Source of the DNA: a virus | Virus record (IMG/VR): IMGVR_UViG_3300009159_000139 | Coordinates: 1 to 39,454 of that record | Length of the DNA stretch: 39,454 bases | Direction: 5' to 3' (one strand) | Shown: piece by piece, positions 1,517-38,293 of the stretch | Position numbering within the stretch: position 1 is the stretch's first letter | How the letters are laid out: the number at the start of each line of letters is the position of its first letter | The notes under the pieces: model-generated | The model's input: only the letters and a program-made list of their open reading frames with translations | Databases searched by the model: none | Told to the model about the DNA's origin: nothing | Made by a program: the position numbers and the translations under genes

Positions 1517-3712
1517 ATGGCCACGACAGTATTAGGAAAAACACGATTTGACATCAAGGGCACCTGGTCCAGTGGTACCGCTACGTATCGCACTGATGAC
1601 ATCGTCTTTTACAACGGAGGATGGTACATAGCCACAGCGGCATCAATATCAGCTGGCACCTTACCAACAAATGCATCTTTTTGGGCACCATATCGTGTGA
1701 GTTTCAACTATCGCGGCACACATGTTAACACAACCGGTACCATATACAAAGCATACGACACAGTACTTTATACTGTGCAGAATACCAATACCACATTCAC
1801 TCAATTCAAGAGAGCAAACCTACAGGCTTATGTCTGTATCGCAGATCATACCGCAGACGGAACCAACACTTATCTGCCATTGAGTGCCACATACTGGCAA
1901 CCAATCATCAGCCAAGGCCAGCGCATTGGTACCAGCATCACTGTTGGTACTGCTACGTCTTTGGATGTATGGGGTGTTTACGGTAACGACCCGCGTAAGA
2001 TTCCTTTCAATGGCTTGGCCAACAAAGGCCGTGTTTGGGACAGCACAGACGTAACGATCAATCCTTACTATGCACGTGGTTCCGGTAAGAGTTCCACTGA
2101 TGCTTACCAAGGTACACATTATATTACAAGTGATGGCGGTGTTGGACTGACAGGGCAAAGCATAACTTCTGGGTCCTCGGGTCACGGTGGCACTGGCCAA
2201 GTTGGTCCACAATGTCACGTTATGAGTTTTATACATCACGACTGGTGGCGTTCAACATCAAACGGTGGTTCGGGTGTGCATTCAACACCAGACAACAATC
2301 CGCCACGTGCTGTACAAGTAGAACGCGGCTACGATCACGGTGCAGTACTGTTCAACAATGGCGAAGTGCATTGCTGGGGCAACGGAGCCAACTACGGCAA
2401 CGGTGATCGTACTACCACAGTACGTTATCAACCCGTACGTGCGGGCGGTACATATACTGAAGTCGCAGTCGCAGCCAACACCACAACACATACTTTCCGC
2501 AACGTAAAGATAGTTCGCATATCGCAGAGTTCTGCAGGCAACACCTGTTCAGGACAAGCAAATAGGCATACACTGGCACTGGATGATGCAGGCAACGTGT
2601 GGGCTTGGGGTTATAATGCTTATGGTCAGTGTGGTACCAATACCACTGCATCAATTCAGATTCCAACGCAGATCACATCGTCATATTTCAACAGTCGTCC
2701 TGTAGTTGCTATCTGGGCATTTGGTGGAGCATACGGTTGGAACTTTGCACTGAATGATCAGAACCAACTATATGGTTGGGGTTATAATGGTACAGGTCAA
2801 CTGGGCAATAGTACTACAACCACCTCAGGTGTATTGGTACCAACTGCTATCACCACACAAACATGGACGGTGGGCAACGCAGGTACCATCCGTAAGATCA
2901 CTTCCATGGGTGGACACGGTGTCACTGCCGGCGCAGGTTGCACAGCGATCCTGACTTCATCAGGTAAGATTTTTGTTGCAGGCAAACAAACAGTTGGTCA
3001 GTTCATGATCAACAGCACCACCCAGACCAACTCGTTTACGCAATGCACAAGTGGTCCAGGTTCTGTCTCAGGCAACGGTGCATACAACATGTGGTTCTGG
3101 GGTGATCCAGACAACGGCATCATGGTAGTTCGAGACACAGTTGACGGCACCACATGGACAGCAGGATACAACGGTCAGTATAACCTGGCAGACAGCACCG
3201 GCGGTACTACCAACTCATCAGTTGCAGTACAGTCCAAGAAACGCGAACGCGGTGCATATTCAAACATAACCAATATCGCAGACTTTGCCACCCTAAGCGG
3301 CGGCAGCAGTGGGTACGCAGCCATGTGTGTCACAGACGGCGGACTGGTATACGGTTTGGGAATGAACAGCTCGGGGCAGCTGGCACAGGGAAATCCTTAT
3401 AGTAGGTCTTTTGACGCACCCGGAGACGGCAACGGCATTGAACATGAAGCCAGCATAAGTGCCTGGATGCCGTCACGCTTGCCTAACAGCATGTACGGCA
3501 AGGTAAACCAAGTCATGCCGTTTGGTTATAAAGACAATGGCAGTACAAATTACGGTGGATTCATTATCGTCAGCAATACCGGAAGATCATTCTTGGCAGG
3601 AGACGGTGCGTGGACTGCCCTGGCTGGATTGCAAGTGGGCACCGTGGGCTATAACTGGTCAGGTAACCAAAGTTATTATCAGTCAATGTTCCGCGCATTG
3701 CTCATTGGTTAA
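1517..3712 (+). CDS. RCC1-repeat beta-propeller tail protein, paralogue 1
   Basis: 731 residues. The N-terminus has a carbohydrate-binding-module-5/12-like unit (GTWSSGTATYRTDDIVFYNG, residues about 12-35) and a weaker second one. The C-terminal two thirds contain about seven RCC1-type blade signatures near residues 285 (HCWGNG), 362 (WAWGYNAYGQCG), 418 (YGWGYNGTGQLG), 485, 547, 612 (YGLGMNSSGQLA) and 692, enough for one seven-bladed propeller. RCC1 propellers are protein- or ligand-interaction platforms. In a tail operon next to fibre genes the likely role is a receptor-binding adhesin at the fibre tip, which is inference. It is followed by two paralogues of the same architecture. The start follows an AAGGA about 9 bases upstream. 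No catalytic motif is visible. Confidence 0.85.
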   Translation: MATTVLGKTRFDIKGTWSSGTATYRTDDIVFYNGGWYIATAASISAGTLPTNASFWAPYRVSFNYRGTHVNTTGTIYKAYDTVLYTVQNTNTTFTQFKRANLQAYVCIADHTADGTNTYLPLSATYWQPIISQGQRIGTSITVGTATSLDVWGVYGNDPRKIPFNGLANKGRVWDSTDVTINPYYARGSGKSSTDAYQGTHYITSDGGVGLTGQSITSGSSGHGGTGQVGPQCHVMSFIHHDWWRSTSNGGSGVHSTPDNNPPRAVQVERGYDHGAVLFNNGEVHCWGNGANYGNGDRTTTVRYQPVRAGGTYTEVAVAANTTTHTFRNVKIVRISQSSAGNTCSGQANRHTLALDDAGNVWAWGYNAYGQCGTNTTASIQIPTQITSSYFNSRPVVAIWAFGGAYGWNFALNDQNQLYGWGYNGTGQLGNSTTTTSGVLVPTAITTQTWTVGNAGTIRKITSMGGHGVTAGAGCTAILTSSGKIFVAGKQTVGQFMINSTTQTNSFTQCTSGPGSVSGNGAYNMWFWGDPDNGIMVVRDTVDGTTWTAGYNGQYNLADSTGGTTNSSVAVQSKKRERGAYSNITNIADFATLSGGSSGYAAMCVTDGGLVYGLGMNSSGQLAQGNPYSRSFDAPGDGNGIEHEASISAWMPSRLPNSMYGKVNQVMPFGYKDNGSTNYGGFIIVSNTGRSFLAGDGAWTALAGLQVGTVGYNWSGNQSYYQSMFRALLIG

Positions 3713-3715
3713 ATA
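3708..3715 (+). promoter_or_regulatory. Possible T4-type late promoter (GTTAAATA)
   Basis: GTTAAATA lies 19 bases before the ATG of the second RCC1 gene and overlaps the stop codon of the first. It resembles the late -10 element TATAAATA and the CTAAATA variants elsewhere in the window. It matches the core TAAATA only, so it could be chance. Confidence 0.45.
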
Positions 3716-3733
3716 GGTTGAGGAAAACAAATA

Positions 3734-6160
3734 ATGGCAACTATAGATCTTGGTAAAGTTAAAATAGTATGGAAAGGTGCGTGGAGCGCCAGTACCACCT
3801 ATGAACCAAACGATGTAGTAACACAAAATAGTGCTACATGGATTTGTACTCAAGGTTATACATTTGTTTCAGGCAATCGACGCACTCCAGGCTTGCGGGA
3901 TCGTACAAATGCATACGGTGTACAGTTTGATCCAGATAAAAATCCCAGAGATGTTTATCTGTTGCAAAAAACAGGTGGTAAGTTTTACATAGATGGTCGT
4001 CGTAACCCAGGATACACTGGTACAGGTAGTCCGATCACCCTTTACCGTGGACAAACATATCGTTTCCAGACCTATCATAGCACAATGAGCGGTGTGACAT
4101 TCCAGTTCTGTACCTCAACAGACGGCACAACTTATACCAATGGTGTCACAGTAGTAGGCACACCAGGTATCTCAGGTTCTTATGTGCAGATAACTGTGCC
4201 ACAAGACGCACCAGCTACACTATACTACAAGCAAAGCGGCACAGCCGCAGTTGCTGATACTTCATCTTTTACCATTGCTGATACCTGGGAAGGATTCCTT
4301 TACTGGGAACAGATTTGCGAAGGCTTTACCTGGAAAGGCACATACAACGCCGCTACTCAGTACTATCGCAACGACGTGGTTGAACTGAACGGATCTTCTT
4401 TCATTGCCAAGGCAGACAGCTTGGGCAAGTATCCAGACATGAGCATGCAGGCAGTAGTAAGTGCTACCAATGCTCCAGGCAGCAGAGGTTTTTGGTCAAC
4501 GTTCTCTGGATCAGGCGCAATGCGTGATCCAGGACGCGGCGCATGGCTAGCAAATCATGGACCGATGGATTGGCCATATCCTCATACACAGAACACCAAT
4601 CCGGTCTTTTATGAAAACACCCAGCATATCGCCCGTGGCGGTCGCGTGTATGTTACAGGTACAGGTACTTCAAACTCAAGCGGTATCCTGCCTGCGCAGA
4701 ACAGCACTCGTGGCGGTGATGAGATTCAATTCTATTTTACCAATTGGTTGCGCAGTAGAGATAACCTACCTCGCTATACTACTACCAAGAGTGCCACAGC
4801 CACAGGTGCGCTGACTGGTGATACATTTGACTATGTGCAACGCAAGCCTGGCCAGCACGGCAATGCTTACTATGGTAAGAATGATCTAACAACACCGCAC
4901 GGTCAGCAACCACGTTGCATACAGATTGATGGCAGCTATGATCACAACTTGTATCTGTTTGACAACGGAGAAGTACATCACGGCGGTTATGCATCAAACG
5001 GTAACTCAGGCGCAGGCTCCACCAGCGTATATACAGGTATGCCACTGCGTGTGCAAAACCTTGAAGGGGTCAAGATCAAGAAAGTTGCTATTGGCATAAG
5101 CGGAACAGGCGATTCTACTCATCACTGCATGGCGCTGGACGAAGACGGTCGTGTGTGGACATGGGGCTACAATGCTTATGGTCAATGTGGCACTGGCCAC
5201 AGCAACAACGTATATGCAGCCTATCAGATTCCAAAAGAATATTTCAACAATCAGCGTGTGATTGATATTGCGATCACAGGCAATGCCACAGCGTCAAGCT
5301 ATGTCAGGACCGAGTCTAACGAAATTTGGTCCTGGGGCTACAACGCAGTGGGTCAGCTGGGACTAGGCGATACAACTAACCGCTGGCGCCCAAACAAAGT
5401 GACTGCATTTGACCCAGCTGCCAACAGTGGTATCCTCAAATGGCAAGTGTGTGGCGATGCAAGTTCTGCAAGTCTTTATATCCTAGACGGCGCTGGTTAC
5501 ATGTGGCATGCAGGTTACAACGGCTATGGACAAGGTATATCAGCTGATACTGCAAACCATCCTACACTGACAAGAAGCACACAGAGCCCCACAGCAGGAA
5601 CAACCACAAATTTCTGGGCATGCCATTCAAACGGTTATACCATGGTGTGGATGCGTACCAGCAACGGTAACACTTACTTCTGTGGTTACAATGCAAGTGG
5701 TTATTATCATGCAGGTACAGGCGACAACGTCAGCAAGAGCGTGCCAACACTGGTTGTAAACGTGACCAACTTGAAACAGGTCTGGAGCTTCTGGGATTAT
5801 ACCACCTTTGCCAAGACCATGTGGTTGACGGACAATGGTCAGCTGTGGGCACAAGGTTATGTCAACTTCTCCTGGAACAATAACTATCAAGCATCATCTG
5901 GTCCAAGCCTGATTGAAAATGGTGTAAACTACTATCCATATCGCTGTGCTATTCCAGGCGGTGCAAAAATTCAACAGATCTGGTGTAACAGTGACGATTC
6001 GTCCACCAACCAGTGGGGACCATACATACTAGGACTAGCGGACAATGGTACTGTTTACTTCTCTGGAGCGAATTTCCAGAACTACAATTACAGTAACAAG
6101 GGCGGAAATCACTACTACGTCCAGGGTACCGGATGGATGCCAATCACAAAAGGAAGATAA
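3734..6160 (+). CDS. RCC1-repeat beta-propeller tail protein, paralogue 2
   Basis: 808 residues, the longest of three tandem paralogues. It has two CBM5/12-like units: WKGAWSASTTYEPNDVVTQN (about residues 12-32) and WKGTYNAATQYYRNDVVELN (about 199-220). Between them is an extra beta-rich stretch containing YRGQTYRFQTYHS, absent from paralogue 1. About seven RCC1 blade signatures follow near residues 414, 475 (WTWGYNAYGQCG), 533 (WSWGYNAVGQLG), 591, 648, 704 and 773. The blade near 475 shares WGYNAYGQCG exactly with paralogue 1, and the DNA there is also close, indicating duplication. The start is supported by GAGG about 12 bases upstream. A role as host-surface or glycan-binding adhesin is inferred from domains and location. 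Confidence 0.85.
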   Translation: MATIDLGKVKIVWKGAWSASTTYEPNDVVTQNSATWICTQGYTFVSGNRRTPGLRDRTNAYGVQFDPDKNPRDVYLLQKTGGKFYIDGRRNPGYTGTGSPITLYRGQTYRFQTYHSTMSGVTFQFCTSTDGTTYTNGVTVVGTPGISGSYVQITVPQDAPATLYYKQSGTAAVADTSSFTIADTWEGFLYWEQICEGFTWKGTYNAATQYYRNDVVELNGSSFIAKADSLGKYPDMSMQAVVSATNAPGSRGFWSTFSGSGAMRDPGRGAWLANHGPMDWPYPHTQNTNPVFYENTQHIARGGRVYVTGTGTSNSSGILPAQNSTRGGDEIQFYFTNWLRSRDNLPRYTTTKSATATGALTGDTFDYVQRKPGQHGNAYYGKNDLTTPHGQQPRCIQIDGSYDHNLYLFDNGEVHHGGYASNGNSGAGSTSVYTGMPLRVQNLEGVKIKKVAIGISGTGDSTHHCMALDEDGRVWTWGYNAYGQCGTGHSNNVYAAYQIPKEYFNNQRVIDIAITGNATASSYVRTESNEIWSWGYNAVGQLGLGDTTNRWRPNKVTAFDPAANSGILKWQVCGDASSASLYILDGAGYMWHAGYNGYGQGISADTANHPTLTRSTQSPTAGTTTNFWACHSNGYTMVWMRTSNGNTYFCGYNASGYYHAGTGDNVSKSVPTLVVNVTNLKQVWSFWDYTTFAKTMWLTDNGQLWAQGYVNFSWNNNYQASSGPSLIENGVNYYPYRCAIPGGAKIQQIWCNSDDSSTNQWGPYILGLADNGTVYFSGANFQNYNYSNKGGNHYYVQGTGWMPITKGR

Positions 6161-6163
6161 ATC

Positions 6164-6589
6164 ATGTCAAACAAAATATTAACCTACAGAGAAGTATTGA
6201 TGGATCAATTCAATCAGCCTGTAGATCTGGATCCAACTGTGGTAGATTCAATAACATACGTGGGCCGTAAAGGCGCAGTGGTCATGTTTAGCTATGATCC
6301 AGCACAGATACAGCCACAGGAAAATCTGCCAGAACACGAACAGCGTGTGTGGGATCTTGATGATCCTGTACAGCTGGCTGAAATGAAAGAATTTGTTGCT
6401 GGTGTAGATGAAATCAAGCGCAAGATTGCTGATATTCAAGCCGGCATCAACAAAAAAGATATGTTCACGATTCTCAAAGGCATCATTGACAAAGACAAAG
6501 ATGTTCTTGCATTTATTAGGGCAATTGACACAGCTAAAGATGACTGGCTGAAAAGCATTGGTCTGCCAGGCGTAAGCATACTAGACTAA
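6164..6589 (+). CDS. Small tail-region protein, possible fibre assembly factor
   Basis: 141 residues, acidic, with a predicted mixed N-terminal part (residues 1-60) and a helical, charged C-terminal half (KIADIQAGINKKDMFTILKG). It sits three bases after paralogue 2 and 20 bases before paralogue 3. Small non-repetitive proteins beside phage fibre genes are often fibre chaperones or connectors, and this one could be either, but I recognise no family. It breaks the run of RCC1 paralogues, so it was either inserted between them or co-duplicated and then lost elsewhere. Start ATG 6164 has AAGGA about 10 bases upstream, inside the end of the preceding gene. Confidence 0.75.
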   Translation: MSNKILTYREVLMDQFNQPVDLDPTVVDSITYVGRKGAVVMFSYDPAQIQPQENLPEHEQRVWDLDDPVQLAEMKEFVAGVDEIKRKIADIQAGINKKDMFTILKGIIDKDKDVLAFIRAIDTAKDDWLKSIGLPGVSILD

Positions 6590-6609
6590 TTTAAGACAGG
6601 ACAAAAGAA

Positions 6610-8811
6610 ATGATTGATGTCAGCAAGTTAAAAAATCGTTGGTTTGGGGAATGGGATCCTTTATATCAATACAAAAAAAATGATGTTGTGCAATTCAGAG
6701 AGTCTTCTTATGTTTGCACTAGAGATATCCCAACGGAATTTGTCTCTGCTATGGATACCAATGTAAGTACTAATAACTATCAAGTGATGGCACCGGGTAT
6801 CTATATCAAGACCAAAGATCCAACTGACAGTACCTTCTGGACATTGATTTCTCCTGGTTCAAGTTTCAAAGGAAACTGGCGTCCTTTTATACGTTATGAG
6901 CGCGGTGATGTGGTTGATCTAGCAGGAGATGTCTACATCTGCATAGCCAACACATGGACACCATACGGATCAAACACTTCATCATATATCGCAAAAAACA
7001 CCTATCCAACAGACACAAACTATTGGACACAGATACTTGCAAGTGCTGATAGAGATCGTAGACTGTACGGCGTACAAACATACAATCAACAGCCATTGGG
7101 ATGGACACGTAACATTGGTGGCAAGTGGACCAATGGCGAAAATGGCAGCACCACCAGCGGCCCGGGTTACATTGACGTTGAAGGCAACTGCAACGGTGCA
7201 GGTTACAAGAACGGCGCATTTGGACAAGGATCCAGCAACAACGGTTATGAATCATATGGCTGGTTCCAGCAGAGCTTTTTGTTCACTGGCTGGCAAGACT
7301 CAACACAGAACGGTGGATCAGGTCGACTGACAACTCCAGATGCCGAAGCACCTAAATGCATACAATGGATGTACAACGCCCAACAGCTCAGCTATTTCTT
7401 GATGAACAATGGCGAACTATATGCATCTGGCACAGCAGGTAACGGACAGCTGGGCAATTCCAGCACCACAGTTCGTTACTATCCAGTGCGTGTGGATGCA
7501 ACAGATACCACTGACTGGCTGGGTAACACTATACCTTACACATTCCGTAACAGCAAGATCGTTAAATTTGCATCAAGCTGCCAAGGTTATAACACCACAA
7601 CAGGACATTGTATTGCACTTGACGACGTTGGCCAAGTATGGTCATGGGGCTACAATGCTTATGGCCAGCTGGGGCTTGGTCAGGACGGCGCCGCGGTAGC
7701 GTCTGTTGGTAACGCACAGACCAACCAAACTCGTCCGCGTTGCATCCCACGCAGTTTCTTCAACGGTAAGAAGATCGTTGACATCTACTCATGGGGCGGC
7801 AGCTACGGCTCAAACTTTGCTATAGACGAAGACGGCGGACTTTGGGGCTGGGGCTTTGACACAGTTGGTGAATTGGGTCTAGGTCATAGGGACGTAGGCT
7901 ATGGCGGTCCAGACTACGTGTGGACACCACAGAAGATAGCCATTGATTTCAACGTGTACGGTGGTATCCAGAAAATTTGGATACAGAACCACGGCACTAC
8001 ACAAAGATTTACCTGGATATTGGATGGCGAAGGCAAGATGTGGCTGGGCGGTCAATTGATTGACAACTCTATAGCCACAGCCAACTTCTGGACCAACTCA
8101 CAGAACTCCACACAGTACGCATCAGGTCGTTTCATACGACTAGTACACGGATGGTGGAAAGACCACGAAGTTGAAAACTTCTGGCTGATTGGTGACAAGA
8201 ACTTTGCCATGTACATGCGAGAAAAAGGCACAGGCATCACATACAGCGTGGGTCATAACTATCATGGCGTACTTGGACAAGCTGCTAATACAACTTACTG
8301 GTGGAACAATGGTGGTTTCAAGACAGAACCAGGTCGCGTGGATGGTGTGATGAACGTGGTTGAAGTATGGAACAATAATGGTAGCTTTAACACATCAACC
8401 TCTCCTAACAGGGCATATATGACACCTTGCTTGCTGACAGAAGAAGGTCAGCTGTGGGGCATGGGATCAAACGATTACGGTAGCTTGGGTCAAGGTTATA
8501 GCGGTAACAACTACAGTGATACCAACTATGATGAATTACATGCCTCAAGTAATCTGTTCAAGCGTATCCCGCACCCAGGCGGATACTCTGCCAAGTGGGC
8601 CAGTGGATCTGGTTGGCCACATGATGGTAGCACATACGACTGCGGTCAGTATCTGACAGATCAGGGTCAGTTGATGATAGCTGGTTTTGACGGTACCACA
8701 GGATATCAAAACTACCAAGGTAGCTACTGGTCACTTAGGTATTACGAAAGCGTCATCATTGATCCAGGTGGTTATCATAGGTATCACATACACGGTCTTC
8801 CAGGCGGATAA
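6610..8811 (+). CDS. RCC1-repeat beta-propeller tail protein, paralogue 3
   Basis: 733 residues, same plan as the two preceding RCC1 genes. Two CBM5/12-like units occupy the N-terminus: WFGEWDPLYQYKKNDVVQF (about residues 11-29) and FKGNWRPFIRYERGDVVDL (about 84-103). RCC1 blade signatures follow near residues 271 (LYASGTAGNGQLG), 344 (WSWGYNAYGQLG), 412 (WGWGFDTVGELG), 477, 545 (YSVGHNYHGVLG), 615 (WGMGSNDYGSLG) and 688, again about seven. Between blades it diverges from the paralogues more than within them, consistent with selection on exposed loops. Likely an adhesin or fibre-tip protein by context. Start ATG 6610 has AGGA 12 bases upstream. Confidence 0.85.
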   Translation: MIDVSKLKNRWFGEWDPLYQYKKNDVVQFRESSYVCTRDIPTEFVSAMDTNVSTNNYQVMAPGIYIKTKDPTDSTFWTLISPGSSFKGNWRPFIRYERGDVVDLAGDVYICIANTWTPYGSNTSSYIAKNTYPTDTNYWTQILASADRDRRLYGVQTYNQQPLGWTRNIGGKWTNGENGSTTSGPGYIDVEGNCNGAGYKNGAFGQGSSNNGYESYGWFQQSFLFTGWQDSTQNGGSGRLTTPDAEAPKCIQWMYNAQQLSYFLMNNGELYASGTAGNGQLGNSSTTVRYYPVRVDATDTTDWLGNTIPYTFRNSKIVKFASSCQGYNTTTGHCIALDDVGQVWSWGYNAYGQLGLGQDGAAVASVGNAQTNQTRPRCIPRSFFNGKKIVDIYSWGGSYGSNFAIDEDGGLWGWGFDTVGELGLGHRDVGYGGPDYVWTPQKIAIDFNVYGGIQKIWIQNHGTTQRFTWILDGEGKMWLGGQLIDNSIATANFWTNSQNSTQYASGRFIRLVHGWWKDHEVENFWLIGDKNFAMYMREKGTGITYSVGHNYHGVLGQAANTTYWWNNGGFKTEPGRVDGVMNVVEVWNNNGSFNTSTSPNRAYMTPCLLTEEGQLWGMGSNDYGSLGQGYSGNNYSDTNYDELHASSNLFKRIPHPGGYSAKWASGSGWPHDGSTYDCGQYLTDQGQLMIAGFDGTTGYQNYQGSYWSLRYYESVIIDPGGYHRYHIHGLPGG

Positions 8812-18259: not shown

Positions 18260-18525
18260 TGAAGACACCACAAGTCCCAGCCTTGGCTGGTATGACTCCG
18301 TTGGGTTTCAAAGATGACCGCCCGTTTGATCGAAGCCGGTATGGCGGACTGTATGACCGTGGATCAGCAGACAGCTACTACCGTCGTGCTCCGGAACCAC
18401 ACTGGTATCCAGAAGGCACAAGCCGTGGCGATCGTATCGTAAATCTCACACCAGACGAAATTGCCGAGTACATGGCTGGCTATGATGAAAACGAGCGCAA
18501 CGGGGATTTCAAAGACTGGGGTTGA
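18259..18525 (+). CDS. Small unknown protein
   Basis: 88 residues, Arg/Asp/Tyr/Gly-rich and probably largely disordered (DRPFDRSRYGGLYDRGSADS). No family recognised. AAGGAGG lies 9 bases before the ATG, inside the preceding gene, and the TAATG junction couples them. The stop codon overlaps the -35 box of the next promoter (18522-18527). Confidence 0.75.
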   Translation: MKTPQVPALAGMTPLGFKDDRPFDRSRYGGLYDRGSADSYYRRAPEPHWYPEGTSRGDRIVNLTPDEIAEYMAGYDENERNGDFKDWG

Positions 18526-18550
18526 CCATAAACTGGTTCTCTCGTATAAT
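18522..18550 (+). promoter_or_regulatory. sigma70 promoter for the 18578 gene
   Basis: TTGACC (18522-18527), 17-base spacer, perfect TATAAT (18545-18550). Predicted start near 18557, then AAGGAG (18567-18572) and the ATG. It lacks the palindromic element seen beside the other early promoters. Confidence 0.9.
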
Positions 18551-18577: not shown

Positions 18578-19843
18578 ATGGCAAGACTGCAATCAAAACG
18601 AATCGCTACGCCTGCACCCAAAGTGGTGTTTGCTGATACGTCTACTCCTTTGCCATTGCGTCCTCTAACGCAAGTGTTCAAGCTCAAGCCAGTCAAGGTC
18701 ACAGTTGGTGAAGTCAAGTATGTGGGCGAGGAGCCTGTGCCTCCACAGGACCGTGTGCTTGAAACAATAGAAATGGCACGTATCTACAACTGGTATTCCT
18801 ACAACTGCGAAGGTGCCGATGCTCGAGCCTGGACAGAACAGCTGATTGCCGCTATGCCCAAGCGCAAGCACCTGATTGAGCGTTACAAGAAGATGCAGGA
18901 CTGGCGCCTTAGTCGTACAGCAGGCTGGGTTGCACGGGTTATCATGCGAGGCGGCCACGTGCCTTACAGCACCCTGCGTTATCTCGCCAAAGCCATCAAG
19001 CTGGCTGAGATTGAGCACAAGAAGTTCCTTGCAGACGAAGCCGAAAAAGAAGAGAAGCTGGAAAAGCCCAAAGCCTATCAGCCCACCATCCAGGAGCGCA
19101 TGCGAGAAAAGCTGGGTGAGTGTCTGGGCGAAGCTGAAGGCTTGGTTGATGAGTTCGTAGGAAACGGACACACTGGCAAGGTAAACGTGTTTGGCTTGTT
19201 CAAGCAGTTCAACCTGCATCAGAACCAAGTGGGTGATGTGCTAAAGTGGGCTGAACCCAAGCTGGAGGAATACCTTGAGCTACAAGAAGCAATCTCTAAA
19301 AAAGTGTCTGAGCGATCAGATGACGAAGAGCAGTTGGTTGAAGGCTACAGGCATCTGAGCAAGAAGCAGATCAAGAGCACAATCGAGATGTGGACCACTG
19401 TGATCGATGCCGCCAACAGCTATGGCACTGTCAAGAAAGCAGAACGTGCGCCACGCAAGCGCAAGCCAGTTCCGCTTGAGAAGCAGGTCAAAGGTATCAA
19501 GTTCCTCAAGAAGGACGATGCAACTGGACTGGCCAGTATTGATCCAACTAAGCTGATTGGTTCAACTGAAATCTGGGTGTACAATGTGAAGACACGCAAG
19601 ATTGGTATCTATGTGGCAGACGACTACAGCAAAGTGCTGTCTGTCAAAGGAGCCAGCTTGCTAGGGTTCAGTGCAAAAGACAGCCGACAGAAGACCCTGC
19701 GCAAGCCAGAGGTACAGCTCAAAGAGTTCCTTACGCTGGGCAAGCCAGCGGCCCGTAAGTGGTTGGAAAAAGTCAAGAGCACAGATATTGCGCTCAACGG
19801 ACGTACCAACGAGCACACCATACTGCTGAGAGCATACAAGTAA
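18578..19843 (+). CDS. Unknown 421-residue protein
   Basis: 421 residues, very Lys/Glu-rich. Residues about 58-130 are helical (MARIYNWYSYNCEGADARAW). Residues 140-280 are strongly charged and coiled-coil-like (IEHKKFLADEAEKEEKLEKP). The C-terminal 120 residues return to mixed structure with STEIWVYNVKTRKIGIYVAD and a final LNGRTNEHTILLRAYK. I recall similar unassigned proteins in marine T4-like phages but cannot name a function. It has its own strong sigma70 promoter and ends at the composite terminator/late-promoter hairpin, so it is a single-gene early or middle unit. AAGGAG supports the start. Confidence 0.85.
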   Translation: MARLQSKRIATPAPKVVFADTSTPLPLRPLTQVFKLKPVKVTVGEVKYVGEEPVPPQDRVLETIEMARIYNWYSYNCEGADARAWTEQLIAAMPKRKHLIERYKKMQDWRLSRTAGWVARVIMRGGHVPYSTLRYLAKAIKLAEIEHKKFLADEAEKEEKLEKPKAYQPTIQERMREKLGECLGEAEGLVDEFVGNGHTGKVNVFGLFKQFNLHQNQVGDVLKWAEPKLEEYLELQEAISKKVSERSDDEEQLVEGYRHLSKKQIKSTIEMWTTVIDAANSYGTVKKAERAPRKRKPVPLEKQVKGIKFLKKDDATGLASIDPTKLIGSTEIWVYNVKTRKIGIYVADDYSKVLSVKGASLLGFSAKDSRQKTLRKPEVQLKEFLTLGKPAARKWLEKVKSTDIALNGRTNEHTILLRAYK

Positions 19844-19860
19844 TCCATCGCTGTCACACA

Positions 19861-19895
19861 AGCCTCCGGTAGCTAAATACTATCGGAGGCTTTTT
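19861..19895 (+). terminator. Composite hairpin: terminator with late promoter in the loop and gp13 ribosome site in the right arm
   Basis: AGCCTCCGGTAG (19861-19872) pairs with CTATCGGAGGCT (19880-19891), 12 positions with one G.T, followed by TTTTTC: an intrinsic terminator for the 421-residue gene. The seven-base loop is exactly CTAAATA (19873-19879), a late-promoter core. GGAGG at 19885-19889 in the right arm is the Shine-Dalgarno of gp13 (ATG 19898). In read-through RNA the site would be base-paired; in RNA started from the loop promoter the left arm is missing. Confidence 0.8.
19872..19879 (+). promoter_or_regulatory. Late promoter GCTAAATA for gp13
   Basis: It lies at the top of the terminator hairpin, 18 bases before the gp13 ATG. 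Predicted initiation near 19885 gives a leader of about 13 bases starting at or just before GGAGG. Confidence 0.7.
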
Positions 19896-19897
19896 CT

Positions 19898-20635
19898 ATG
19901 ACAACAAGAAACGATATAATCCGCGAAATTGAGCTACGTTTGGGTGGCGGTATGGTTGACGTCGAACTGGACCGAGATCACTACGACATTGCAATCAATC
20001 GTGCCATAAGCAAGTATCGTCAGCGCAGTTCTAATTCTGTAGAAGAAGGCTACCTAGTTCTCAATTTACAGCCTCAGCAGGACACTTATATCCTGCCCCA
20101 AGAAGTCATACAAGTACGCTATCTTTTCCGCAGTGGCGCAGGTGGTGTATCATCTGGTGTTTCCTTTGAACCATTTGGTGCCGCATACATCAATGCATAC
20201 CTACTGCAAAGCACAGGCTCTGGGTCGTTGGTAAACTACGAAATTTATTCTCAGTATCGTGAATTGCTTGGTAGGATGTTTGGTCAGGAAATCATATTTG
20301 ACTGGGTAGAACAAACCAAGACACTTAGGTTGCATCGCAACATCAAGTCGGAGAATGATTCGATCATCGTGCAAGCCTACATGTTCCGTCCGGATGTTTC
20401 GTTGTTCAATGACATATATGCTGGATCATGGATCAAAGACTATTCCACAGCACATTCCAAAATGATGTTGGGTGAAGCACGTAGCAAGTTTGCACAAATT
20501 GCTGGTCCGCAAGGCGGATCAAGTCTGAATGGTGAAAACCTCAAAGTTGAAGCACAAGCCGATCTAGAAAAACTAGAATTATCTATTGGACTCTACGAAG
20601 AAGGCGGAAAGCCACTTGGTATTGTTATAGGTTGA
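19898..20635 (+). CDS. 13: Neck protein gp13
   Basis: 245 residues (T4 gp13 is 309). gp13 forms the neck with gp14, joining portal and tail after packaging. The N-terminal block MTTRNDIIREIELRLGGGMV followed by DVELDRDHYDIAINRAISKYRQRS and a YILPQEVIQVRYLFR segment is the conserved start of gp13 in marine T4-like phages. The C-terminal half (RLHRNIKSENDSIIVQAYMF, then SWIKDYSTAHSKMMLGEARS) also fits. The start follows GGAGG at 19885-19889, which lies in the right arm of the terminator hairpin. Expression should be late. The stop codon lies inside the -35 box of the next promoter (20632-20637). Confidence 0.85.
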   Translation: MTTRNDIIREIELRLGGGMVDVELDRDHYDIAINRAISKYRQRSSNSVEEGYLVLNLQPQQDTYILPQEVIQVRYLFRSGAGGVSSGVSFEPFGAAYINAYLLQSTGSGSLVNYEIYSQYRELLGRMFGQEIIFDWVEQTKTLRLHRNIKSENDSIIVQAYMFRPDVSLFNDIYAGSWIKDYSTAHSKMMLGEARSKFAQIAGPQGGSSLNGENLKVEAQADLEKLELSIGLYEEGGKPLGIVIG

Positions 20636-20660
20636 CCTTGATCGTTGATCCTGCTATAGT
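20632..20660 (+). promoter_or_regulatory. sigma70 promoter giving an apparently leaderless dNMP kinase mRNA
   Basis: TTGACC (20632-20637), 17-base spacer, TATAGT (20655-20660). Only six bases separate the -10 box from the ATG at 20667, so transcription would start at about the A of the ATG. No Shine-Dalgarno is present. Confidence 0.8.
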
Positions 20661-20666
20661 AGCAGT

Positions 20667-21284
20667 ATGACAAAACTTATTGGCATCTGCGGTTTCATTG
20701 GTTCCGGCAAAGACACAGCCGCAGATTATCTAGTTAACATCCACGGGTTTCGAAGAGACTCATTTGCTGCCACCCTCAAAGATGCCGTTGCCGCTGTGTT
20801 TGGTTGGGACCGAGAAATGCTTGAAGGTCGCACCAAACACGCACGTGAATGGCGAGAACAAATTGATCCGTGGTGGGCAGAGCGGCTTGAAATGCCCAAC
20901 CTAACTCCTCGTCTTGTGCTACAGCTATGGGGTACAGAAGTGTGCCGCAAAGGCTTCCACAACGACATTTGGATTGCCAGCGTAGAAAACAAACTGCGCA
21001 CCAGCCAAGACAACATTGTTATCTCAGATTGCAGATTTCCAAACGAAATCAAAGCCATCAAGTCAGCAGGCGGCAAAGTCATCTGGGTACAGCGTGGCAT
21101 TTTACCGCATTGGCATGATGTTGCTGTGCAAGCAAACAAAGGCAGTGAGTCTGCACAACGATTCCTAGCACAAGAAGGCATACATGCTAGCGAAACTGCC
21201 TGGGTTGGAACCAATTTTGACTATATAGTAGACAACAATCAATCTTTTGACGAACTATACAATCAGCTTAATGCCGTGTTATGA
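20667..21284 (+). CDS. 1: Deoxynucleoside monophosphate kinase (gp1-like)
   Basis: 205 residues (T4 gp1 is 241). It phosphorylates dNMPs to dNDPs for phage DNA synthesis. The P-loop GFIGSGKDT (residues 9-17) is followed by the family pattern DSFAATLKDAVAAVFGWDRE (about 32-51), a PRLVLQLWGTEVCR helix (about 81-94) and DCRFPNEIKAIKSAGGKVIW (about 121-140). All match the T4 gp1 / dNMP kinase fold. It sits between structural genes gp13 and gp18 but has its own sigma70 promoter, so it can be expressed early regardless of its neighbours. No ribosome-binding site precedes the ATG. Confidence 0.9.
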   Translation: MTKLIGICGFIGSGKDTAADYLVNIHGFRRDSFAATLKDAVAAVFGWDREMLEGRTKHAREWREQIDPWWAERLEMPNLTPRLVLQLWGTEVCRKGFHNDIWIASVENKLRTSQDNIVISDCRFPNEIKAIKSAGGKVIWVQRGILPHWHDVAVQANKGSESAQRFLAQEGIHASETAWVGTNFDYIVDNNQSFDELYNQLNAVL

Positions 21285-21345
21285 TGCGCATGCTGGATAA
21301 CGAAATCTACAGTTCCTGGTAAATACCACCCATTTTCCTGAGCCT

Positions 21346-21365
21346 CAGCTAAATAGATACAGCTG
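21346..21365 (+). promoter_or_regulatory. Late promoter GCTAAATA (21348-21355) within a small inverted repeat, upstream of gp18
   Basis: CAGCT (21346-21350) and AGCTG (21361-21365) flank AAATAGATAC. The late core CTAAATA ends 37 bases before the gp18 ATG. A second TAAATA core (GGTAAATA) lies at 21318-21325. gp18 is a very abundant protein, so strong late promotion is expected. Confidence 0.65.
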
Positions 21366-21392
21366 AAAAGCCAATACTCAGGAGATTTGAAC

Positions 21393-23756
21393 ATGGCAAC
21401 TTTAACTTCACCAGGCGTAGCGATTAGCGTCATTGACGAAAGCATCTACGTTTCAGCCGGAAACGGCACAGTACCACTGATAGCGATTGCTACAGAGGCA
21501 AACAAATACAGCGTGGACGGATCCACGATTGCATCAAGTACATCACAATCAAATGTCTTGGAATTGTTAACTAGCCAACGCGATCTTTTGATCCGATACG
21601 GCAAGCCACAGTTCAAGATCGTTGATGGTACACCAGTACATGGATACGAAACAAACGAATACGGACTCTATGCAGCCTACAGCTTCTTGGGTCTTGCTAA
21701 CCGTGCATACGTTATCCGTGCTGATGTTGACCTAGCACAGCTAGAGCCATCCGCAGTAGAACCAACATCGCAGCCAGCCGCTGGCACTTACTGGATGGAT
21801 ATATCTGCCGCACGTTTTGGTCTTTTCAAATCAGCTGCCGCAGGCGATGCTTATGACAACTGGTCACCAGTTACTCTTCTGCTACCAGCTACTGCTAATC
21901 TAACAGGCAGCGCACCAGCATCCACATATGGATCAAATGGTGATTATGCTTGGGTAACACAGACCAACGTAAATCAGATCTACAAGAAAACCGCAGGTTC
22001 ATGGGCCGCAGTTACAACACTGGTAAACATTGCCCCACACTATAGCATTCCAAATGCATCAGCCGCAGGCGATCTATGGTTCAAGACAACTTCTCCAAAC
22101 AATGGTTTCTTGCCAGCATTGAAGAAGTATGTTATTGCAAATGGTCAAGTGGTAGGTACATGGGTGAATGCACAGACTGCTATATTAGCTTACCCAGATG
22201 ATTCAACAGCTAACACTAACGGTCAGAATGTTATCAACCGCGTGTATGCTAAGACCACAACAGGTTCAGCAGCCTTCAAGTTGCGCATCTACACATCCTC
22301 AGGTTGGGAAGATCTTACATACGAAGCCAATGCCAATGAGCCAGCTGGTGATCCAGCAGTAGGCACATTGTGGTACAACGACGAACTAACAGTTGACTTG
22401 TATCGCAAGAGCGCACTGGGTTGGGAACCAATCGACAATGCCAATGTATACATCAACACCGATGCACCTGCTGGTCCTTCAGTCGGCGACATCTGGGTTG
22501 ACAGTTCAGACATGGAAAACTATCCAAAGATTTATGAATACAATGGCGCCGCATGGGACTTGCATGACAATTCAGATCAAACAACACCAATGGGTGTAGT
22601 GTTTGCTGACTTGACAACAACTGCCAATGACGACACAGATGGTGGCGCGGCAACATTGATCGACGTTGATGCACCAGATCCATTGTTCTACCCAACTGGC
22701 ATGCTGTGCTGGAACGCAATCGTTTCAACAGGTAACGTCAAGACATACAACGGCACATACTGGCAGACAGAATCAGGCAACTACGATTCAGGCTTCAATG
22801 CTGGCGCACCTTACATGTTGCGCAAAGCACAGCGTCGTGTGGTTGTCAAGCGTTTGCAGGCAGCTCTTCGTGAAGAAGTACTTGCTGATGAAACAGTAAG
22901 CTTCAGCTTAATTGCTTGCCCATCTTATCCAGAGACAATCGACGAGATGATCGAGTTGAACGTGAACCGCAAGGAAACAGCGTTTATTATCGGTGATACT
23001 CCATTGCGTCTAAGCGGACGTGGTTCAGCTGTTGAGACATGGGCAACTGGTACCAATGCTGGTGTAAACGGCGAAGACGGTCTTGTTACACGCAATACCA
23101 ACGTAGCTGTTTACTATCCAAGTGCAATCACATCAGACCTAGACGGTAATGATGTTGTTGTTCCTGCTAGCCATGCAGTACTGCGCACTTATGCCTACAA
23201 CGACCAGGTAGCTTATCCATGGTTTGCTCCAGCTGGTCTACAGCGTGGCGCAGTAAGTAACGTAACAAACTTTGGTTATGTCAATGGCGAAAGCGAATTC
23301 GTACCATTGGCATTGAGCCAAGGCATGCGCGATGCATTGTACTACAAGCGTATCAATCCAATGACAAACTTCCCAGGACAGGGCTTGTTTGTGTTTGGTC
23401 AGAAGACATTGCATCCATATGATAGCGCACTTGATCGTGTTAACGTAGCACGTTTGGTTTGCTACTTGCGTGAACGTTTTGAGCCACTAGCTCGTCCGTT
23501 CATCTTTGAACCAAACGACAAGCAGACACGTGCATCTGTTAAGAATCGTTTTGATGACTTCTTAACTGATATGATCAGTAAGCGAGCATTGTACGACTTC
23601 TTGGTTGTTTGCGACGAAACAAACAACACACCAGCTCGAATCGATAGAAACGAGTTGTACGTGGACGTTGCTATTGCTCCTGTAAAAGCCGCGGAATTCA
23701 TCTACATTCCAATACGTGTAGTTAATACCGGTAGCCTTGGACCTGCAGGGGTCTAA
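21393..23756 (+). CDS. 18: Tail sheath protein gp18
   Basis: 787 residues (T4 gp18 is 659). It polymerises around the tube and contracts. The N-terminus MATLTSPGVAISVIDESIY and the C-terminal half (VVVKRLQAALREEVLADETV; then YPWFAPAGLQRGAVSNVTNF; LDRVNVARLVCYLRERFEPL; VVCDETNNTPARIDRNELYV) are typical sheath. Residues about 125-470 hold at least five tandem modules with a G-x-x-W or Y ... Y-x-x-NG-x-W pattern (AGTYWMDISAARFGLF; GDLWFKTTSPNNG; VGTLWYNDELTVDLY; VGDIWVDSS; YNGTYWQTES), forming an enlarged, probably surface-exposed insertion as in other marine T4-like sheaths. ATG 21393 is preferred over TTG 21387 because AGGAGA lies 8 bases before it. Confidence 0.93.
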   Translation: MATLTSPGVAISVIDESIYVSAGNGTVPLIAIATEANKYSVDGSTIASSTSQSNVLELLTSQRDLLIRYGKPQFKIVDGTPVHGYETNEYGLYAAYSFLGLANRAYVIRADVDLAQLEPSAVEPTSQPAAGTYWMDISAARFGLFKSAAAGDAYDNWSPVTLLLPATANLTGSAPASTYGSNGDYAWVTQTNVNQIYKKTAGSWAAVTTLVNIAPHYSIPNASAAGDLWFKTTSPNNGFLPALKKYVIANGQVVGTWVNAQTAILAYPDDSTANTNGQNVINRVYAKTTTGSAAFKLRIYTSSGWEDLTYEANANEPAGDPAVGTLWYNDELTVDLYRKSALGWEPIDNANVYINTDAPAGPSVGDIWVDSSDMENYPKIYEYNGAAWDLHDNSDQTTPMGVVFADLTTTANDDTDGGAATLIDVDAPDPLFYPTGMLCWNAIVSTGNVKTYNGTYWQTESGNYDSGFNAGAPYMLRKAQRRVVVKRLQAALREEVLADETVSFSLIACPSYPETIDEMIELNVNRKETAFIIGDTPLRLSGRGSAVETWATGTNAGVNGEDGLVTRNTNVAVYYPSAITSDLDGNDVVVPASHAVLRTYAYNDQVAYPWFAPAGLQRGAVSNVTNFGYVNGESEFVPLALSQGMRDALYYKRINPMTNFPGQGLFVFGQKTLHPYDSALDRVNVARLVCYLRERFEPLARPFIFEPNDKQTRASVKNRFDDFLTDMISKRALYDFLVVCDETNNTPARIDRNELYVDVAIAPVKAAEFIYIPIRVVNTGSLGPAGV

Positions 23757-36458: not shown

Positions 36459-36510
36459 GTTGCAACTGGACATGAAAACCAGAAGCAAATAAAACATGAA
36501 GGAAAGTACC

Positions 36511-37732: not shown

Positions 37733-38293
37733 ATGAGCACAATTAAAACATTAGTTGAGGGCTTTATTAAGCCAGCCAGAGTGAAAGGAGTTGTACGCAA
37801 CCAGGTTGCGTACACTCAGTGCTTTGAATTTACATCAAGTGAACTAGAAAGATTGGTTACCCTTTATAAGGAAACTGTCTTTCTAGAAGATATGCGGGCC
37901 AGGCTAATACGTGATAGCATTGATCATTGGATTCGTCGATACCATGGATACGCAATTGAAGGAAAAATAAAAAGTCACTACAGAGAAGTAGGCGTAATCG
38001 AACGAGAGTCTGTCTTTGAACATGTTATTCCTGCAAGTTCTGTCAGAGACATGTTAATGCAGGACAGGCTTACGATTAATCAAGCACTAAATACCCCTGT
38101 GTGCTTGATTAAAAGATCAAGCGATAAGGTGTTGTCGGATAATGGATTGACTAAGACTAGTCCTAGCAATTACTATTTCTTTCAACGATACCTTGTCTTG
38201 AACTCATCGTTTACAACATACGATGGGATACCAATTACTGATTTATCAAAATGGTCACTTGAAGATCATTTTGAGTATTTTGGAATAGCATAA
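37733..38293 (+). CDS. Unknown partner of the ParB-like protein (possible HNH-like motif)
   Basis: 186 residues from ATG 37733, in tight linkage (TAACATG) with the preceding ParB-like gene; a longer frame from 37628 would only overlap that gene. The stretch ESVFEHVIPASSVRDMLMQD (about residues 98-117) followed by INQALNTPVCLIKRSSDKVL and LSDNGL has the E-H-x-I-P and downstream Asn/Leu spacing of HNH-like endonucleases, but the fit is partial and unverified. C-terminus is aromatic-rich (SPSNYYFFQRYLVLNSSFTT). Unknown function. Confidence 0.6.
   Translation: MSTIKTLVEGFIKPARVKGVVRNQVAYTQCFEFTSSELERLVTLYKETVFLEDMRARLIRDSIDHWIRRYHGYAIEGKIKSHYREVGVIERESVFEHVIPASSVRDMLMQDRLTINQALNTPVCLIKRSSDKVLSDNGLTKTSPSNYYFFQRYLVLNSSFTTYDGIPITDLSKWSLEDHFEYFGIA

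Follow-up and report, generated by a model that had tools for sequence, protein, structure and literature searches.

A putative late promoter in the loop of a hairpin over a neck gene's Shine-Dalgarno sequence: a predicted early/late translational switch in giant T4-like phages

The gp13 locus and its hairpin

The stretch of DNA analysed here (the window) is a virus record of 39,454 bases whose genes include T4-like ones for the virion and for replication. Judged by terminase and neck protein, the closest of the named phages include PA5oct, Atu_ph07, and Phosso, with about 41-54% amino-acid identity; megablast of named phages gave no match, and a scan of bacterial genomes gave no relative. In the tail-fibre region (1517-8811), three large proteins match regulator-of-chromosome-condensation (RCC1-like) families. 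Two late genes, gp13 and gp18, each lie behind a presumably early gene in the same orientation, and the features of this part of the window are as follows (SD, Shine-Dalgarno sequence).

18522-18550, + strand: sigma70-type (early) promoter TTGACC-17-TATAAT of the gene upstream of gp13, a promoter match
18578-19843, + strand: upstream gene, presumably early, phrog_11903 (unknown function), 421 aa, codirectional with gp13
19860-19872, + strand: left arm of the gp13 hairpin (anti-SD strand), from sequence, fold, and covariation in relatives; predicted to be missing from late RNA
19874-19879, + strand: putative late promoter core TAAATA in the gp13 hairpin loop, preceding gp13 in all unique loci examined
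19880-19892, + strand: right arm of the gp13 hairpin with the SD GGAGG (19885-19889), from sequence, fold, and SD opening energy
19885, + strand: predicted late transcription start, the sixth base after TAAATA, from leaderless relatives and a conserved purine
19891-19895, + strand: T-run after the gp13 hairpin, a possible intrinsic terminator tail by sequence, not conserved
19898-20635, + strand: gp13-like neck / head-tail adaptor Ad2 gene, 245 aa (phrog_211, E 4.5e-35)
20632-20660, + strand: sigma70-type (early) promoter TTGACC-17-TATAGT of the deoxynucleoside monophosphate (dNMP) kinase gene, a promoter match
20667-21284, + strand: dNMP kinase gene, presumably early, codirectional with gp18 (phrog_139)
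21334-21342, + strand: left arm TTTCCTGAG masking the gp18 SD, from sequence and fold
21350-21355, + strand: putative late promoter core TAAATA inside the gp18 masking hairpin
21377-21385, + strand: right arm CTCAGGAGA of the gp18 hairpin with the SD AGGAGA (21380-21385), predicted to be masked
21393-23756, + strand: gp18-like tail sheath gene (phrog_10581, E 4e-227)

At 16 of 19 loci, the phrog_11903 gene has a sigma70 promoter (TTGACA-17-TATAAT) that matches at 11-12 of 12 positions, a level seen in none of the shuffles, and TAAATA precedes this gene in just one of the 19. For the dNMP kinase gene, 11-12 of 12 matches were found in 31 of 105 loci, a level never reached in shuffles. Early genes thus appear to bear sigma70 promoters and late genes TAAATA, the timing of both promoter types being presumed. 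The dNMP kinase start is located 6 nt past the -10 box (TATAGTAGCAGTATG; 20632-20669), a spacing common to 11 loci, and a leaderless early mRNA is predicted there.

Positions 19860-19900 read AAGCCTCCGGTAG-CTAAATA-CTATCGGAGGCTT-TTTCT-ATG, in which 19860-19892 form a hairpin with a loop of exactly CTAAATA (19873-19879). The original prediction on this DNA had described a 12-position stem that is followed by TTTTT and carries GGAGG for gp13 in its right arm. GGAGG is indeed present at 19885-19889, and so is the stem, but it counts 13 pairs including one G·U; the T-run also exists at 19891-19895, but its first two T (19891-19892) are already paired in the stem, and the unpaired U-tract is hence short (TTTCT). 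The predicted folding energy is -25 kcal/mol over 71 nt (z -6.2), and none of 200 shuffles was as strong; the hairpin element is real and not a product of chance. Masking of the SD was then evaluated from the energy needed to open it in read-through RNA, with shuffles of the untranscribed part serving as the control. Opening the gp13 SD would cost 17.5-18.1 kcal/mol on read-through RNA (0/200 shuffles) versus 0.2-2.3 kcal/mol on RNA from the predicted late start; shuffled controls are at about 5. As in the SD-masking switch of T4, the gp13 SD is hence predicted to be paired in the read-through transcript, and the promoter in the loop seems to be placed so that late RNA is devoid of the 5' arm. 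Rfam covariance models at gathering thresholds gave no match over the whole window.

TAAATA as the putative late promoter core

The original prediction regarded CTAAATA as the late-promoter core. The loop letters are exactly CTAAATA and contain TAAATA, but the leading C is not conserved; the base before TAAATA is G in the relatives L009-L011 and mostly A in relatives. CTAAATA was rejected as a 7-mer signal, since it is not enriched in the window (5 seen versus 3.4 expected). The conserved late core is, as judged by comparison of loci, TAAATA just before late genes, not CTAAATA. Indeed, every unique locus examined has TAAATA no more than 62 nt upstream of gp13 (about 9% expected by chance), with a mild bias in that, among several possible start codons, the one suitably distant from TAAATA was preferred. 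TAAATA is also found within 120 nt upstream of all 119 sheath homologues and all 56 tail-tube genes.

The distance from the first base of TAAATA to ATG is 11 nt in leaderless relatives (13 in one), and the offset of the leaderless start is occupied by a purine in all sheath and gp19 tail-tube promoters. Based upon this spacing and the conserved purine, we put the late start at G19885, and the late mRNA of gp13 is predicted to begin GGAGGCUUUUUCUAUG with the left arm missing. In T4, the TATA box of late promoters spans 8 bp and is located roughly one helical turn ahead of the transcription start (PMC2988020). Also, 10 of 13 related records encode a member of the gp55-like late sigma family phrog_12791 (best E 6e-118), the window itself being a fragment, and Atu_ph07 was reported to encode a gp55-type late sigma factor (PMC6102473). 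With respect to T4-like late transcription (gp55 sigma and the TATAAATA box), the putative late sigma factor is thus found in the relatives only.

Elsewhere in the window, the hairpin at the CTAAATA of 1471 is not significant (z 0.8). A perfect 12-bp hairpin at 38076-38112 (TTAATCAAGCAC-TAAATACCCCTGT-GTGCTTGATTAA; z -4.0) has TAAATA in its loop and sits inside an ORF, with no obvious gene start adjoining.

Covariation of the arms and specificity of the masking

In five close relatives, the arms of the gp13 hairpin are invariant while the flanks differ, and the loop is CTAAATA, GTAAATATA, or GTAAATA. In relatives at about 50% identity, the arms differ yet remain complementary (e.g., GTGCCTCCGG-TAAATAGCAA-CCGGAGGCAC, AATCCCTCGATAAATATATTATCGGGGGATT, and GGTCTCCCGATAAATAGTTTATTGGGAGACC), and across relatives TAAATA is located within the loop or at its edge with the SD in the right arm. 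Among 33 distinct masked gp13 sequences, 9 of the 11 pairs have changed on both sides; such both-side changes amount to 80 cells, compared with 30 in shuffled and at most 22 in slid alignments, and the covariation score is 0.574 versus 0.266 (shuffled) and at most 0.193 (slid). Paired cells account for 89.8% versus 71% (shuffled) and 39-47% (slid), a percentage inflated by the choice of the set for masking. Despite this selection, covariation of this extent that is lost on a one-base slide appears hard to explain otherwise. The excess of G·U over A·C (26 versus 13, p 0.053) favours RNA over a DNA palindrome only weakly. Loss of the loop motif and the complementary arms in relatives had been named in advance as grounds against the proposal; no such loss was found, and the arms change together. 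Compensating mutations conserve the predicted switch on core structural genes across many giant phages.

The next late gene after gp13, gp18, has the same design of hairpin and promoter, albeit with a modest mask in the window (6 of 200 shuffles as strong), and gp13 (0/200) and gp18 are the only TAAATA-preceded genes masked in the window. A z of 11 for the ssb gene was rejected as an artefact of near-zero null variance. Separately, the gene start at 36496 has a masked SD (z 3.9, 0/200) with no TAAATA nearby. Among unique sheath loci, 29 of 59 are masked at 1% or better and 39 of 59 at 5%; because the arms fall out of register when sheath leaders are aligned with MAFFT, opening energies of individual sequences were used here instead of pair counts. 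For the tail-tube gene gp19 with the same promoter in the same phages, in contrast, 54 of 56 are unmasked and two masked (median z 0.0). When the masking test was applied to T4, e, 49, and I-TevII (0/200) were flagged, while soc was not recovered (27/200), nor were 13, 15, 18, and 19 flagged. The likeness to T4 drawn in the original prediction is apt for e, which scores as masked in the same test as gp13; soc does not. T4's own 13 and 18, which are unmasked, follow other virion or packaging genes.

With a codirectional upstream gene, the gp13 SD is masked in 30 of 49 loci, versus 1 of 20 with a divergent one (Fisher 1e-5, kinship ignored); on the tree, this link rests on two to three independent contrasts, is not significant after phylogeny, and cannot be called a demonstrated evolutionary correlation. 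Codirectional relatives with no gp13 mask are L050, L139, L142, and L145. In two large related contigs, for which the gene calls are crude, 11 of 71 SD-type TAAATA genes are masked and none of eight with a divergent neighbour; three of the 11 are the contigs' own gp13 or sheath genes, leaving about eight further genes. The masked genes in these two contigs showed no enrichment behind genes for which a sigma70 promoter was detected.

A predicted early/late switch and its alternatives

From sequence, structure prediction, conservation, covariation, and the specificity among control genes, the gp13 element is very probably a promoter-coupled early/late translational switch. Early RNA from the sigma70-promoted upstream gene would read through and carry both arms of the hairpin, which would lock the gp13 SD away, and no neck protein would be made early. 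Later, RNA polymerase carrying the gp55-like late sigma factor of the phage would start at TAAATA in the loop, and the mRNA from about G19885, having no left arm, would be translated. The same logic would apply to gp18, where the putative late promoter is also in the hairpin loop. The opening energies and the covariation of the arms support the masking on early RNA and release on late RNA that the original prediction had proposed; we infer the promoter timing, the start site, the early read-through, and the effect on translation. As for read-through into gp13, a codirectional upstream gene with a sigma70 promoter was found.

The hairpin may also stop some early RNA in this genome as a secondary role. 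By pairs and by GC pairs, no other terminator-like match in 15-34 kb (19 kb scanned) is as strong, and in the window its GC-rich stem is directly followed by a U-tract as in rho-independent terminators; termination at this hairpin is plausible. Termination and masking might even both operate here as a compact double lock, a stronger form of the switch rather than an exclusive alternative, and we regard this as possible but somewhat short of an even chance: both features are in the sequence, and similar combinations occur in relatives, L218 (AACCCTTGCTAAATATAACATTAGCAGGGGTTTTTT) and L224, while the unpaired U-tract is short and not conserved. Indeed, the T-run is 5-6 long in the window, L008, and L011 but 3 in L009 and L010, and 4-6 in the CTCCCG clade but 1-2 in the whole CTCCGG-TAAATA clade; the U-tract is thus not retained in all relatives that keep the stem. 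Since the T-run varies across clades, termination would be optional at most, and the terminator role that had been proposed is possible in the window but not a conserved one.

It is unlikely that the hairpin serves chiefly as an intrinsic terminator for the upstream early gene, with the overlap of promoter and SD being incidental packing. Its rank among terminator-like matches would fit such a role, as would the tail of TTTTT or TTTTTT in most of the CTCCCG clade as well as in the window, L008, and L011, and L138, L146, and L147 have a separate terminator before the same promoter, suggesting that stopping early RNA is useful there. Nonetheless, the stem, the loop core, and the position of the SD are kept where the tail is shortened (L009 and L010) or absent (the CTCCGG-TAAATA clade), and the gp18 mask in the window has no T-run after it. 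Much less probable still is a palindrome in the DNA to which a regulator binds at the late promoter; the arms are symmetric around the promoter core and I-TevI binds its own operator (PMC2988022), but the arms vary freely in sequence from clade to clade yet remain complementary and keep the SD in the right arm, and control promoters of the same type have no such repeats. A chance hairpin can practically be dismissed, given 0/200 shuffles and the covariation that already contradicts it.

Besides the translational switch, relatives show other architectures at gp13. In L138, L146, and L147, the mask is missing and the same promoter is directly preceded by a separate, clean terminator; in L012-L035 and a subset of L163-L194, TAAATA is exactly 11 nt before the gp13 ATG, predicting a leaderless late mRNA; and the L158-L201 group mostly has a divergent neighbour (MPRLSLYKP... 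protein, a virion gene) with back-to-back late elements (TATTTA...TAAATA). All of these would keep early RNA from making the neck protein. As a tentative rule, for which we would not claim even odds, late virion genes behind an early gene in giant T4-like phages might be translatable only via the 5' end made by the late promoter, through alternative devices: namely, an SD-masking hairpin with the promoter in its loop, a promoter-adjacent terminator, a leaderless late mRNA, and a divergent neighbour, with some elements, including that of gp13, fusing terminator, promoter, and mask of the ribosome-binding site.

Such a switch has been described in reviews for T4 e, soc, 49, I-TevI, I-TevII, I-TevIII, and segB and for Aeh1 mobE, late genes on long early/middle transcripts (PMC2988022, PMC3014915). 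In e, soc, and 49, the SD or AUG is sequestered on early RNA, and the late promoters are in the 5' strand of the structure (PMC3014915). The layout of I-TevII and I-TevI is near-identical to that of gp13, with the late promoter inside an SD-masking hairpin (CCTCGTATAAATATGAATACGAGG before ATG in I-TevII), and early/middle read-through RNA is masked while late RNA is free (PMC2988022). These two are, however, intron homing endonucleases, whereas here we find a core virion gene, a T-run, and compensating changes across distant phages. In Aeh1 mobE and T4 segB, a hairpin sequesters the ribosome-binding site along with a late promoter (PMC2988022); both are homing endonuclease genes, unlike the neck gene here. 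The gp13 element would join this T4-type switch, its sequence-testable features being present, early read-through indirectly, and its function predicted. No report of such a switch on giant-phage neck or sheath genes was found in the open-licence literature.

Studies of the mechanism have so far dealt with a few T4 genes, many of them dispensable or selfish (soc, homing endonucleases), while the switch predicted here is on core virion genes (neck and sheath) of giant phages. The differing architectures at gp13 offer a natural comparison of the ways in which phages keep late proteins off early RNA, and the covariation is strong enough for building a searchable model. TAAATA inside or beside an SD-masking hairpin was also observed at L211:10075(-), L216:16750(-), L218:6514(-), and L224:12228(+) (0-based, oriented strand), and the hairpins in L218 and L224 also run into a T-tract.
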